Position numbers and translations under genes: made by a program. Shown here one piece after another: positions 38,426 to 41,992 of a DNA stretch of 64,000 bases (within the stretch, counting starts at the first letter, position 1; each line of letters begins with the position of its first letter). The stretch lies in NCBI RefSeq assembly GCF_002245655.1, contig NZ_NOIH01000003.1:434001-498000 (forward strand). The letters are read 5' to 3'. Below the pieces are notes generated by a model. The model saw only the letters and a list, made by a program, of their open reading frames with translations, was not told the DNA's origin and ran no database searches. The DNA comes from Thauera propionica (GTDB lineage: Bacteria; Pseudomonadota; Gammaproteobacteria; Burkholderiales; Rhodocyclaceae).

Positions 38426-39850
38426 CTAACGGGCGCCGAGATAGGCGAACTTGCGCTCGTAGTCGAGGCTCATGCCGTAGGGGAAGGCCTCGTATCGATG
38501 GCACCGCACGGTGGGAACCGCCGCCGCTGGCTGCTCGCACTGCTCGCCCACCAGCGCAGCCAGCGCCTCGGCCATGGCCTGCGGGTCGACCGCGGCATCG
38601 CGCCGCAACTGCACTTCCCACACTGGTGCAGGCTCGCCCGCGAAGACGCGGAACGCCCCGGAGAGCAGGTCCGCCAGCTCGGGGCGGCGATAAAGCAGCG
38701 ACTTGAAATGGTCGACGTGCCAGCGCGCGTCGATCCAGTCGCGCTTGCGGCCCAGCATGGCGATCATCGGCAGGGGCTGCGCACGCAACCGCACCCTCAC
38801 GTCGGCCGGCACAACGGCGTAATCATCCTCCGTCAGCCAGCGCGCGAGATCACCCGTACAGTAGCGGATCAAGGGAATCGTCGCCTTGGCGTCGAGCACG
38901 GTGATCACCAGCTCGCCCACGCCATCGGCGTCGGGCGCATGGATCTCGACGAAGGTCCGCAGCGGGTCATAGCAGAAGAACACCGGCAACACGGCGCCCG
39001 GATCGCGCCGATGATGCGCCCTTCGCAGGGCAATCGTCTCACGGGTCTCGAAGAACAGGTTCAGGCCGAGTTCGCCCGCCCCCATCGAACTGCCGATCAG
39101 GGGGTCGTCGGCGCCGGCGCCATCGACCTCGGCGTGCAACCTGCCAGCGACGTAGCTGCGGAAATCCTCGGAAAAGGTCTCCTCGCCGAGGATCACATTG
39201 GTCCGGATGCCCGACCAGTCGAAGCCCTGCTGCTGCGCATGGTCGAGCAGGCGCTTGAAGAACAGGGGATCGACGCACAGGATCAGCTGCTCGTACAAGG
39301 GCATCGCCTGGCGCACGATCGCCAGCGCCATGTCCTCGCGCACGCTGACGTTCGCCACCGTGACGGTACGGGAGGTGAACACCACGCCCATCGGCAGGCA
39401 ATTGACGAGCAGGGTACTACGTTCGTCGATGCCGAAGGCGAGCTGCAGCCCGAGGTCGATCGCGCCGGCGCTCGCATCCATCTGCGCCCGCGTGCTCATG
39501 CCGAAACCGAAGGTCTTCCCGCCCTGCCCGGAGCTCGTCAGAACGCCCGCGATGGACGACAGCGGAATGTCCTCCGCGAGGAGCTCCGTGATCGTGAAGC
39601 GGCCAAAGGTATTCGCCTTGTCGAGCAGCGGAGCGCGGGTGACGATGTCCTGGGCCGACAGTGCGGCGGATCCGGCAAGGCCGGCCTCGGCGAGCAGTGT
39701 CCGGTAGGCCGGCGACACGCGCGCCGCGCGCTCAAAGCAGCGCTCGAGGCGTCCGCGCGACAGATCCAGCAGCTTGTCCGGCTTCTGCCTCGACAACTGC
39801 TGCAGCATGAACCTGCGCCCGAAGCGGCGCAGCTGGGAAAGCGGTGACAT
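38426..39850 (-). CDS. PaaK/CapK-like adenylate-forming enzyme linked to the PEP-CTERM acyltransferase
   Basis: 474 residues. It resembles phenylacetate-CoA ligase and the F390 synthetase-like enzymes. The nucleotide loop is TSSGQGGKTFGFG (the TSSGTTG equivalent), followed by ETFSEDFRSYVAGRL and GSSMGAGELGLNLFFE. ICYDPLRTFVEI-like FFCYDPLRTFVEI and YCTGDLARWL (the adenylate-binding Asp) follow. The end, LDYERKFAYL, carries the likely catalytic lysine. It should activate a carboxylic acid with ATP; its acid is unknown. It lies 86 bases downstream of the exosortase-associated acyltransferase gene on the same strand and may make the activated donor for it. ATG 39850 has GAGG just upstream. Confidence 0.8.
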   Translation of the reverse strand: MSPLSQLRRFGRRFMLQQLSRQKPDKLLDLSRGRLERCFERAARVSPAYRTLLAEAGLAGSAALSAQDIVTRAPLLDKANTFGRFTITELLAEDIPLSSIAGVLTSSGQGGKTFGFGMSTRAQMDASAGAIDLGLQLAFGIDERSTLLVNCLPMGVVFTSRTVTVANVSVREDMALAIVRQAMPLYEQLILCVDPLFFKRLLDHAQQQGFDWSGIRTNVILGEETFSEDFRSYVAGRLHAEVDGAGADDPLIGSSMGAGELGLNLFFETRETIALRRAHHRRDPGAVLPVFFCYDPLRTFVEIHAPDADGVGELVITVLDAKATIPLIRYCTGDLARWLTEDDYAVVPADVRVRLRAQPLPMIAMLGRKRDWIDARWHVDHFKSLLYRRPELADLLSGAFRVFAGEPAPVWEVQLRRDAAVDPQAMAEALAALVGEQCEQPAAAVPTVRCHRYEAFPYGMSLDYERKFAYLGAR

Positions 39851-39936
39851 GACCTCGCCCCTCACTCGACACGACGCTCATCGCACACGACGCCGTCGCC
39901 ACCAGGCGCCTCGCGTCGCCGGTCAGGCCGAGGCGC

Positions 39937-40653
39937 TCAGGGCCCGTACTGGAACCAGTCGAGCAACTCGGGCTTGGTCACCTTGAGCCTGTCCTCGATC
40001 TCCTTGAGGTCCGCGAGGTAAGGCGTGACCGGCCCGTAATAGTCGCGCTCGGCACCAATCGGCACGAAGATGAAATCGAACCGGGCCAGCGCGCGCGCGA
40101 GCGGCCGCTCCATCGCCGCATACCAGTAGCGGATGCCCTTCTCGCGACTGTACCGGTACATCTGACGATACAGCCCCAGCACCACGACCGGGGCGTTCGT
40201 CCGGCGCCCCTGACCACTGTCCGCCGCATCGCCATCGGCGGTGTTCACGCCGAACCAGGTGTCGCCGGTCCTGCGGCGATAGTCCTTCTTGACCGCGAGA
40301 CGCGAAACCTCCGCCGTCAGTTCGGGCGCAGGCAACGCAACGTCGTCGAACACCGGGCAATGGCTCACGAAGGGAAACGGCTCGCCCTGTGCGCCCAATA
40401 CCAGCCGTGCTGTGCCGACGACCGCGCCATCGACATTGTGAGCCGCGAAATGCGCCGATCGCGCGTCGAACTCGTCGCTCTCGAGCCCTGCAGGGTACTC
40501 AGCCGGCGGCAGGAATCCGCATTCGAGACAGTAAGTCTGGTAACGCAGGGCGTAGATCTCGACGAGTTCCTGCTCTCGGCAGCCCACTTCATAGGTGTGC
40601 ATGGAAAAATATCTCGTCAATGCATCAAAAATGGCATTTCCAGTGGATTCCAT
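39937..40653 (-). CDS. PEP-CTERM/exosortase system-associated acyltransferase (LuxI/FeeM-like GNAT fold)
   Basis: 238 residues. The pattern is that of N-acyl synthases: LVEIYALRYQTYCLECGFL, LESDEFDARSAHFAAHN, VVGTARLVLG, then PFPFVSHCPVF and AEVSRLAVKKDYRRR, where the Glu-x-Ser-Arg motif is typical of LuxI-like acyltransferases. The C-terminal part has YWYAAMERPLARALARFDFIFVPIGAERDYYGPVTPY. This family occurs only in bacteria with exosortase/PEP-CTERM systems. The reaction is not proven; N-acylation of an amino acid or amine is plausible. Divergent from a PEP-CTERM protein gene and cotranscribed with the PaaK-like gene. No exosortase gene is in the window. ATG 40653 preceded by AAGGCGGGG. Confidence 0.85.
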   Translation of the reverse strand: MESTGNAIFDALTRYFSMHTYEVGCREQELVEIYALRYQTYCLECGFLPPAEYPAGLESDEFDARSAHFAAHNVDGAVVGTARLVLGAQGEPFPFVSHCPVFDDVALPAPELTAEVSRLAVKKDYRRRTGDTWFGVNTADGDAADSGQGRRTNAPVVVLGLYRQMYRYSREKGIRYWYAAMERPLARALARFDFIFVPIGAERDYYGPVTPYLADLKEIEDRLKVTKPELLDWFQYGP

Positions 40654-41015
40654 GGCACACCCCGCCTTCAGTCTCAGTGGACAAGCAGAGGTTAACACGC
40701 GCGGCAACACCCGACACACAGGGAGAGGCGCAAAAAGAATGGAATCCGGTCGACAGGCAAAGGAAATGCGTCACAAATCCGCGTGATTTTAGGTCTTCAG
40801 ACCGAGAATGCATTTGGCCAAGTGTAAGAAGCTGCGTCACTCGCGCCTCTCGGCCATGACGACCGCACTGGTCAGTGTCGGTTTTTTTTACACAGACACC
40901 CAATACGATCTCAAGCATAGACATTAAGCCATTGTTTTTTATCTAAAAACATATGATGGCACGCTCGATGCATGACGATTCGCGGCAGATGCCGGACTTC
41001 CTGACGGAGGGAATC
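40654..41015. promoter_or_regulatory. AT-rich divergent control region of the PEP-CTERM locus
   Basis: This 362-base gap separates the divergent acyltransferase and PEP-CTERM genes and holds no convincing gene. It is less GC-rich than its neighbours. It contains poly-T stretches (40884-40890, 40934-40940) that could bend DNA, for instance by IHF, and near its right end a sigma-54 promoter for the PEP-CTERM gene. A corresponding promoter for the acyltransferase was not found. Confidence 0.6.
40957..40972 (+). promoter_or_regulatory. Sigma-54 (-24/-12) promoter of the PEP-CTERM gene
   Basis: TGGCACGCTCGATGCA has the invariant GG and GC with exactly ten bases between them and a full TGGCACG match of the -24 box. 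The start of transcription would fall near 40983, leaving about 33 bases of leader that includes the GGAGGG ribosome binding site. Sigma-54 with the PrsK/PrsR two-component system is known to drive PEP-CTERM genes in floc-forming betaproteobacteria. Confidence 0.8.
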
Positions 41016-41903
41016 ATGAGAATCGCACTCAAGCCCGCAATCGGCGCGACAATGATTGCACTCGCAGCGATGAGCGGTGCCGCAAACGCAGCACCGCTGA
41101 CGCAACTCCACTTCACCCAAGCGTCGGCCTACGACCCGACCTCGCTTGATTTCGATAATTCGCAGGGGCTAGTGCCGGCATTCAGCGATTCAAACAGGAC
41201 ATTTTCGTGGACTTCTACTCTCAGCGGCACCACAAGCAGCCTGACGATCGAATCGTATAATTCGGGGCAAACCGAAGCGGCAGCGGGTGATGCCAACGGA
41301 GAATGGAATGCTGGTGAGTGGTTCCGGATTGACCAGTTGATCCAGCGCAACCAAGTTCTGTCAGTTCCCGGCGGCGTGCCTGTCCCGAATCCGTTGTGGA
41401 TCGCTGACATCATTGGCACTTTCGCTGTGTATCAGAACGCTGACTTCAGCAACGCGCTGCTACCAGGCGGTAGCGACACGACCACCACAACACTCAAGTA
41501 CTGGGAAACTCTCAACGAGGACAACTTGGACCAGTGTGACGGACCGACTCCGCTGGGCTCACTTTGTGACGATGAGTACACCGTGCTAGCCCTATCGCTT
41601 GCACCGCTGTCGTTCATCCTCGACGACTACATATATGAGATCTCGTTCCGTCTCGAACCGGGCGCTGGCACAACCGTTTGTGTTAAGGATGCCCTCTCGC
41701 CGGAATGCGAGGCAGCGGGCGTGACATTTGATGCCGACGAGTTGATTAAGGTCTATGCAGCCGAGCAAGAGCAAAGCAACCTGTTCGTTGCCGCCGCCTG
41801 GACTGCCACCCAGATTCCCGAACCGGGCGTTCTCGGCCTGCTTGGCATCGGCCTGATGGGCATGGGCCTGAGCGCTCGTCGTCGCAAGGCGACTGCCGCC
41901 TGA
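41016..41903 (+). CDS. PEP-CTERM sorting-domain protein, exported
   Basis: 295 residues. A signal peptide (residues 1-26, ending GAANAAP) leads to an acidic beta-rich body with Ser/Thr/Gly/Asn-rich loops, and the C-terminus is a textbook PEP-CTERM signal: IPEPGVLGLLGIGLMGMGLSARRRK, cut here for length, with the PEP motif, a hydrophobic helix and an Arg cluster. Exosortase recognises this and releases the protein to the surface or extracellular matrix. Four cysteines (CDGPTPLGSLCDDE and CVKDALSPEC) suggest two disulfides. The segment IDQLIQRNQVLSVPGGVPV hints at the THxN-type PEP-CTERM subfamily. GGAGGG lies five bases before ATG 41016. Lower GC than neighbours. Confidence 0.9.
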   Translation: MRIALKPAIGATMIALAAMSGAANAAPLTQLHFTQASAYDPTSLDFDNSQGLVPAFSDSNRTFSWTSTLSGTTSSLTIESYNSGQTEAAAGDANGEWNAGEWFRIDQLIQRNQVLSVPGGVPVPNPLWIADIIGTFAVYQNADFSNALLPGGSDTTTTTLKYWETLNEDNLDQCDGPTPLGSLCDDEYTVLALSLAPLSFILDDYIYEISFRLEPGAGTTVCVKDALSPECEAAGVTFDADELIKVYAAEQEQSNLFVAAAWTATQIPEPGVLGLLGIGLMGMGLSARRRKATAA

Positions 41904-41957: not shown

Positions 41958-41992
41958 GAAACGGCTCCTGGAATCGGGGGCCGTTTCTTTTT
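41958..41992 (+). terminator. Rho-independent terminator after the PEP-CTERM gene
   Basis: GAAACGGC pairs with GCCGTTTC across a 14-base loop containing further C/G pairing, and is followed by CTTTTTC... reading TTTCTTTTTCC. A stem with T-run makes this a convincing intrinsic terminator. Confidence 0.85.

Follow-up and report, generated by a model that had tools for sequence, protein, structure and literature searches.

A conserved gene pair of an acyltransferase and a PaaK-like adenylate-forming enzyme in the exosortase/PEP-CTERM system

We analyzed a stretch of 64,000 nucleotides (nt) from Thauera propionica (contig NZ_NOIH01000003.1, positions 434,001 to 498,000; hereafter the window), in which the gene of an exosortase-associated acyltransferase is followed by that of a PaaK-like adenylate-forming enzyme, both divergent from a gene for a PEP-CTERM protein. 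Within the exosortase/PEP-CTERM system, the two enzymes would form a biosynthetic pair. Among 80 loci found by a profile of the PaaK-like protein alone, 69 have an acyltransferase gene within 1 kb of the PaaK-like gene. In the order of the window, a clear PaaK-like gene was present in 8 of the 43 genomes with an above-cut-off acyltransferase compared to none of the 356 without (Fisher P = 1e-8, which, like the other Fisher P-values, is too small by some factor because genomes of one order are related). Conservation of the pairing across genomes had been set as a test beforehand in a preliminary description of the locus, and the outcome is strongly in its favor. As to the chemistry, we tentatively favor a scheme in which the PaaK-like enzyme activates an acid that the acyltransferase joins to an amine. 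The features of the locus are the following:

38426–39850, minus strand: PaaK-fold adenylate-forming enzyme, 474 amino acids (aa), named from predicted fold and adenylation motifs, no family cut-off reached
39937–40653, minus strand: exosortase-associated GNAT/LuxI-fold acyltransferase (TIGR03694), 238 aa, ATG start, named from TIGR03694 and fold
40957–40972, plus strand: sigma-54-type −24/−12 element, TGGCAC-N5-ATGCA, one mismatch, 43 bp 5′ of the PEP-CTERM start codon
41016–41903, plus strand: PEP-CTERM protein of the THxN family (295 aa), encoded divergently to the two enzymes
41811–41885, plus strand: PEP-CTERM sorting motif, protein residues 266–290 (PF07589, 27.3 bits over 20.7)
41958–41987, plus strand: terminator-like hairpin and T-run 3′ of the PEP-CTERM gene, weak (4 such sites in the region compared to 2.6 expected from shuffling)

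The PaaK-like gene lies 86 bp downstream of the acyltransferase gene on the same strand. Coordinates, strands and family scores thus bear out the operon and the divergent PEP-CTERM gene proposed earlier, and the two motifs pointed out in the acyltransferase, EVSRLAV and YYGPVTPY, are both present in its translation. For the PEP-CTERM gene, we preferred the start at 41016, which gives a signal-peptide-like N terminus, over that of the longest open reading frame (ORF) at 40953, because the sigma-54-like element occupies 40957–40972. The genome (3.93 Mb, 57 contigs) holds one copy of the PaaK-like gene and a single exosortase (PF09721, 241.4 bits) on another contig, C27; the earlier statement that no exosortase is present in the window was correct. 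Two further TIGR03694-type acyltransferases lie in tandem on contig C19 of the same genome (118.9 and 107.9 bits), in addition to a weak match of 25.8 bits.

Linkage of the two genes across genomes

Searching the genome contigs with the PaaK-like sequence as a single protein returned no relative. The profile scan of public genomes found 99 relatives, 80 of which were retained as the loci for all counts per 80. They represent 72 Pseudomonadota (Alpha-, Beta- and Gammaproteobacteria, two unassigned) and 8 members of seven other phyla, and carriers include Haliea salexigens, Ectothiorhodospira shaposhnikovii, Aquincola tertiaricarbonis and Thiocapsa roseopersicina. Their PaaK-like proteins are 32–61% identical to that of the window. 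The 69 linked loci (68 from Pseudomonadota, one from Acidobacteriota) have a median of 85 bp between the two matches. Their nearest acyltransferase gene is upstream and co-directional in 50 cases, and the three other arrangements occur 8, 7 and 4 times, indicating that the linkage survives rearrangement. At least two acyltransferases are found within 3 kb in 17 of the PaaK-like loci.

Fifteen loci around distant PaaK homologs (L082–L096; the best ~30% identical, 500 aa) served as controls. They contained no acyltransferase gene and one chance match to the PEP-CTERM pattern, and no neighborhood was shared among the four that were printed. Loci L082–L094 hold a sister family of ~500-aa PaaK-fold-related proteins from the class of the window, for which no Pfam family was found in the three proteins scanned.

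In the genome samples, only matches over 200 bits were taken as clear PaaK-like homologs, so that lower matches were not counted in 20 of the 22 matching genomes of the class sample and in 6 of the 14 of the order sample. Clear homologs were thereby found in 8 of 399 genomes of the order, that of the window included, and in one more genome of the class sample. When homologous loci from these samples were opened, the acyltransferase was the immediate neighbor in all eight besides the window, three of which have two acyltransferases.

The two proteins also share their history. The correlation between their distance matrices is 0.66 for 64 pairs (the window and 63 of the 80 loci, excluding loci with truncated or missing partners) compared to a maximum of 0.18 in 2000 permutations, which shows joint inheritance rather than contact because shared descent contributes. 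When 100 acyltransferases were placed in a tree, all 67 PaaK-linked rows (66 loci and the window) fell into one group, which has only four unlinked rows, from genomes G663 and G745. A split with 99/98 support sets this group apart from 27 further members of the family, and the tandem pair on C19 is its sister; since unlinked rows were drawn from the order of the window and from its own genome, the tree covers the family incompletely.

The remaining 11 loci, which lack an acyltransferase at this distance of 1 kb, are four at contig edges, two from Omnitrophota and five without a family match. In the first four (L120, L138, L154, L156), the sequence ends within ~500 bp of the PaaK-like gene on one side. 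Searched genome-wide, L138 and L154 carry an above-cut-off acyltransferase elsewhere, and L120 and L156 gave weak matches only (35 and 41 bits), so that no more than part of the missing neighbors can be put down to the end of a contig. In the Omnitrophota loci (L171, L174), the acyltransferase is ~4.5 kb away from the PaaK-like gene.

The acyltransferase family had been described as occurring only with exosortase systems, and this held in the order sample, where an exosortase was present in all 43 genomes with an above-cut-off acyltransferase compared to 122 of 356 without (P = 8e-19). For the PaaK-like gene, the corresponding counts were 8 of 8 and 157 of 391 (P = 8e-4). The 122 genomes with an exosortase and no above-cut-off acyltransferase indicate that an exosortase works without the acyltransferase. 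A PF09721 match was found in 64 of the 80 PaaK-like genomes (39 of 50 and 25 of 30); the 16 without one comprise 14 metagenome-assembled genomes (MAGs) and two isolates, and G052 of the class sample gave no exosortase match either. In seven Chromatiaceae loci (L124, L126, L132, L142, L150, L157, L160), the enzyme genes point toward each other, and we saw no strict PEP-CTERM gene in their vicinity; the genome has a strong exosortase match in L142 and a weak one or none in the other six. Genes for a DegP-like protease, a sensor kinase and a GGDEF-EAL protein are among the neighbors in L150.

Folds, conserved residues and genomic context

The acyltransferase of the window scores 200.9 bits against TIGR03694 (cut-off 111.95) and passes the gathering scores of PF13444 (56.2 bits) and of the FeeM family PF21926 (36.2 over 27), whereas it stays below that of Autoind_synth, PF00765 (19.6 bits versus 24). 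Its predicted structure has a mean predicted local distance difference test score (pLDDT) of 86.0, with residues 129–152 as the single stretch under 50. The best solved fold matches were TofI, LasI, BjaI and RpaI, and FeeM (2g0b) ranked 15th (E = 1.6e-6), in line with the proposal that the fold is shared with autoinducer synthases and N-acyl amino acid synthases. By sequence profile, the solved relatives ranked as MesI (6wns, 2.3e-9), RpaI (6wn0, 8e-6), BjaI (5w8a, 3e-5) and LasI (4e-5). R37, E58, D63, R83, E115 and R118 are invariant among 72 aligned acyltransferases, with the same letters in MesI, and we take the aligned Arg, Asp and Glu positions to be the catalytic residues of the LuxI family.

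The PaaK-like protein belongs to the PaaK-fold adenylate-forming (ANL) superfamily, judged by its predicted fold and its kept adenylation motifs. Scanning the window protein gave no Pfam match and no NCBIfam match over a cut-off; it lies far below the PaaK models TIGR02155 (25.7 versus 646.3 bits) and NF041878 (34.2 versus 700). Its model is of high confidence (mean pLDDT 93.7, predicted template modeling score 0.92), and PaaK1 (2y27) came first both in Foldseek and in VIA-align (E = 4.5e-20; Z 31.2, root-mean-square deviation 3.4, 392 aligned residues, 21% identity), which agrees with the earlier label of a PaaK-like enzyme. The next matches were BT_0428, 2-hydroxyisobutyryl-coenzyme A (CoA) ligase, NatL2, AjiA1, ClxA and GH3 amido synthetases; families not named in these lists are not counted as absent. 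S106, S107, G108, E260, R329 and D334 are invariant in 75 aligned PaaK-like sequences, and R368, E465, R466 and K467 nearly so. We presume that these include the P-loop SSG, the A5 Glu (E260), the A7 Asp (D334), the A8 Arg (R368) and the C-terminal Lys (K467), a set that would be expected of a working adenylating enzyme.

The PEP-CTERM protein of the window passes the THxN model NF038125 (96.3 over 85) and TIGR02595 (22.7 over 16) and is under the PepA flocculation model NF033554 (32.2 bits versus 80). A sigma-54 promoter had been proposed for its gene, and the one-mismatch element is present. Since the pattern is not rare across the window (4 matches with at most one mismatch compared to 2.00 expected), the promoter would be suggestive only from the window alone. 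It becomes convincing by comparison: of 46 PEP-CTERM genes within 3 kb of the pair, 24 carry a −24/−12 element with at most one mismatch (0.19 expected) and 34 with at most two (1.51 expected), the expectations coming from shuffles that preserve base composition only. We also considered sigma-54 control of the acyltransferase genes themselves and found no support for it: at up to one, two and three mismatches, 1, 3 and 19 of their 83 upstream regions had a match, where shuffles of the same kind predict 0.28, 2.32 and 11.18.

A strict PEP-CTERM pattern was found within 3 kb of the pair in 44 of the 80 loci; this count was used because a loose pattern (49 of 80) gave visible false matches. These genes cluster close to the pair, with 34 in the first kb of the flanks, 11 in the second and 1 to 3 per kb bin beyond. 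Of ten neighboring PEP-CTERM proteins that we scanned, two belong to the THxN family, six align with PepA over most of their length and two were unassigned. In an Opitutaceae locus without an acyltransferase match (L175:8789-9826), the PaaK-like gene stands directly behind a PEP-CTERM gene, and its tie to PEP-CTERM may therefore not depend on the acyltransferase.

Other neighbors point to transport. In the 80 PaaK-like loci, we found genes for LolA-like proteins (19), LolCE/MacB-like permeases (18), an AMIN/DUF1302 outer-membrane protein (16) and ATP-grasp enzymes (4), none of which occurred in the 15 control loci; most PaaK-like loci also lack them within the flanks. Twenty loci of acyltransferases without a PaaK-like gene gave 9 permeases, 6 LolA-like proteins and 6 outer-membrane proteins. 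The LolA-like, LolCE/MacB-like and AMIN/DUF1302 neighbors suggest a hydrophobic product that is carried to the outer membrane.

In 4 of these 20 loci, a ThiF-type adenylating enzyme takes the place of the PaaK-like enzyme in the stretch that was opened. The C19 locus of the same genome (L049:2177-11433, outside the window) combines an MMPL exporter, DUF1302, a LolA-like protein, ThiF, a PEP-CTERM protein, the two tandem acyltransferases and a methyltransferase, and L212 and L213 have similar gene sets, ThiF included. L199 and L200 show the order PEP-CTERM, ThiF, acyltransferase. G663 and G745, whose acyltransferases fall inside the PaaK-linked group, have ThiF instead of PaaK, with only 22–24% identity to the ThiF of the window's genome. 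Among the 80 PaaK-like loci, ThiF occurred once, at the far end of L098 beside a second acyltransferase pair. Taking rows over 280 bits as the ThiF subfamily (the next row had 98.5), it was found in 19 of the 43 acyltransferase genomes, 9 of which have it no more than 10 kb from the acyltransferase by coordinate comparison, and at a similar frequency in exosortase genomes without an above-cut-off acyltransferase (17 of 37). ThiF thus serves as a hint only. In three exosortase genomes (L209:6174-8153, L210:6856-8835, L211:1903-3939), the ThiF proteins are ~660–680 aa long, with a matched ThiF part of ~290 aa, and in L214 a separate 357-aa gene follows ThiF.

Possible reactions of the pair

The scheme that we prefer, and hold tentatively, has the PaaK-like enzyme activate the acid that the acyltransferase then joins to an amine. 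From its fold and motifs, the PaaK-like enzyme would adenylate a carboxylic acid and hand it on, probably in the form of a CoA thioester. Judged by its family, the acyltransferase would move the acyl group onto the amine of an amino acid or another amine, giving an N-acyl amide. The product would probably be an envelope lipid or a surface-active molecule that takes part, with the sigma-54-controlled PEP-CTERM protein, in the building of matrix or flocs. Which reaction comes first, the use of CoA, the nature of the substrates and what the product is for are what we infer here. Three points lead us to prefer activation of the donor: small free acids are bound in solved enzymes of the PaaK fold, acyltransferases with a PaaK-like partner form their own group, and the profile search ranks the CoA-dependent N-acyl-homoserine lactone (AHL) synthases MesI, RpaI and BjaI first among solved sequences, in agreement with a CoA ligase as the partner.

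Several observations weigh against this scheme. Of the 8 genomes from phyla other than Pseudomonadota, only 1 has the two genes side by side, 35 of the 43 acyltransferase-bearing genomes of the order have no clear PaaK-like gene, and five genomes with a PaaK-like gene (L119, L170, L172, L175, L176) gave no TIGR03694 match genome-wide at E = 1e-3. EsaI, TofI and LasI use acyl carrier protein (ACP); EsaI tops the single-sequence search of the acyltransferase (E = 0.095), and TofI and LasI top Foldseek. ThiF enzymes activate peptide or amino-acid carboxyls, and their presence in the place of PaaK in sister loci fits activation of the product. Finally, the Neisseria relative NmNAT is reported to have yielded its products in E. 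coli as the only enzyme expressed (PMC9762135), which would mean that the wider group can do without a partner that activates the donor.

The two steps could also run in the reverse order: the acyltransferase would make an N-acyl amino acid from acyl-ACP, like its relatives in the literature, and the PaaK-like enzyme would adenylate its carboxyl for transfer to a second amine, a hydroxyl or a protein. The productive NmNAT (PMC9762135), the five genomes without an acyltransferase match and the ThiF enzymes that hold the same place in C19, L199, L200, L212, L213 and G663/G745 all agree with this order. However, given the low identity between the ThiF of G663/G745 and that of C19 and the even distribution of ThiF over exosortase genomes with and without the acyltransferase, ThiF need not be equivalent to PaaK, and the small free acids bound by solved PaaK-fold relatives, going by the structure titles, speak for activation of a donor. 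We consider the reverse order somewhat unlikely, although it is the main alternative.

A more specific scheme would combine the neighbors: N-acyl amides completed by a dedicated adenylating enzyme, PaaK-like or ThiF, would be exported by Lol-like or MMPL systems to the outer membrane and there hold or receive the PEP-CTERM protein. We regard this full chain as distinctly unlikely; if true, it would give the exosortase system an undescribed lipid partner. In a related proposal, the product would be an N-acyl amide lipid that takes part in the exosortase reaction, either as the nucleophile or by anchoring the cleaved PEP-CTERM proteins in the membrane. The exosortase in 43 of 43 acyltransferase genomes and the clustering of PEP-CTERM genes in the first two kb beside the pair (34 and 11, versus 1 to 3 per bin) fit such a role, but the lack of a PF09721 match in 16 of 80 PaaK-like genomes (14 of them MAGs) and in G052, and the 122 of 356 genomes with an exosortase and no above-cut-off acyltransferase, make it improbable.

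A diffusible quorum-type signal, for which the PaaK-like enzyme would feed an unusual acyl-CoA to an AHL-synthase-like acyltransferase as 4-coumaroyl-CoA is fed to RpaI, seems highly unlikely from family scores and gene neighbors, no LuxR search having been made. AHL synthases are indeed the top solved structures, and the catalytic positions align with those of MesI and RpaI, yet the protein passes the FeeM model and not that of Autoind_synth, and the Lol-like and AMIN/DUF1302 neighbors (19, 18 and 16 of 80 loci, 0 of 15 controls) suggest envelope transport of something hydrophobic. That the enzymes are mere neighbors, serving unrelated pathways of one regulon, could be argued from their shared confinement mostly to exosortase genomes, which carry long exopolysaccharide loci, but is very improbable in view of the four orientations kept across Alpha-, Beta- and Gammaproteobacteria at 32–61% PaaK-like identity, the correlated distances and the 15 control loci without an acyltransferase and with a single chance PEP-CTERM pattern.

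Relation to known systems

The link of N-acyl amino acid synthases with the PEP-CTERM system is known; it is cited as published in 2011 (PMC7293339, PMC4897644 and PMC11631085), and the physiological function of their products was still called unclear in 2016 (PMC4897644). For the conserved PaaK-like partner, we found no published description in a literature search, and the protein of the window is under every Pfam and NCBIfam cut-off. With an adenylating enzyme conserved beside the acyltransferase, only a few testable reactions come into question, and the PaaK-like family gains a context. The pair points to an envelope lipid or signal made for a sticky matrix and may explain part of the matrix building by floc- and biofilm-forming bacteria.

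Among acyltransferases, the enzyme of the window resembles the N-acyl tyrosine synthase FeeM in its PF21926 score over the gathering threshold and in the 2g0b fold match. FeeM is supplied by an ACP encoded in its own cluster, whereas no ACP gene was found beside the pair among the ORFs of at least 80 aa examined, shorter ORFs not being searched. With LuxI-type AHL synthases, above all the CoA-dependent RpaI, BjaI and MesI, it shares the fold and the aligned Arg, Asp and Glu, but it is under the Autoind_synth gathering score. NasP is reportedly the PEP-CTERM/exosortase-associated N-acyl amino acid synthase of Craig, Cherry and Brady from 2011. With such synthases (TIGR03694; NasP and NmNAT, PMC9762135), the acyltransferase shares family or annotation and the genomic tie to PEP-CTERM genes; the available text of PMC9762135 describes no PaaK-like partner, however, and the acyltransferase of the window is grouped apart from 27 relatives of its order.

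The PaaK-like enzyme is similar to the phenylacetate-CoA ligase PaaK and its natural-product relatives NatL2, AjiA1 and ClxA in predicted fold over nearly the full length and in adenylation motifs. It differs in its ~20% identity, far under the PaaK model cut-offs, and in the C-terminal DYERKF motif that its family keeps. A CapK protein is reported from exopolysaccharide loci (PMC3684757 and PMC1569441).

On the PEP-CTERM side, PepA of Aquincola is reported to be RpoN-dependent and involved in floc formation (PMC9850573). Six of the ten scanned neighbors align with this protein, and such genes carry −24/−12 elements, but all ten are under the PepA cut-off and the window protein is of the THxN family. 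A sigma-54 motif 5′ of PEP-CTERM genes was described in 2006 (PMC1569441). The −24/−12 element upstream of the PEP-CTERM gene of the window, with its one mismatch, would fit the sigma-54 PEP-CTERM regulon (PrsK/PrsR).

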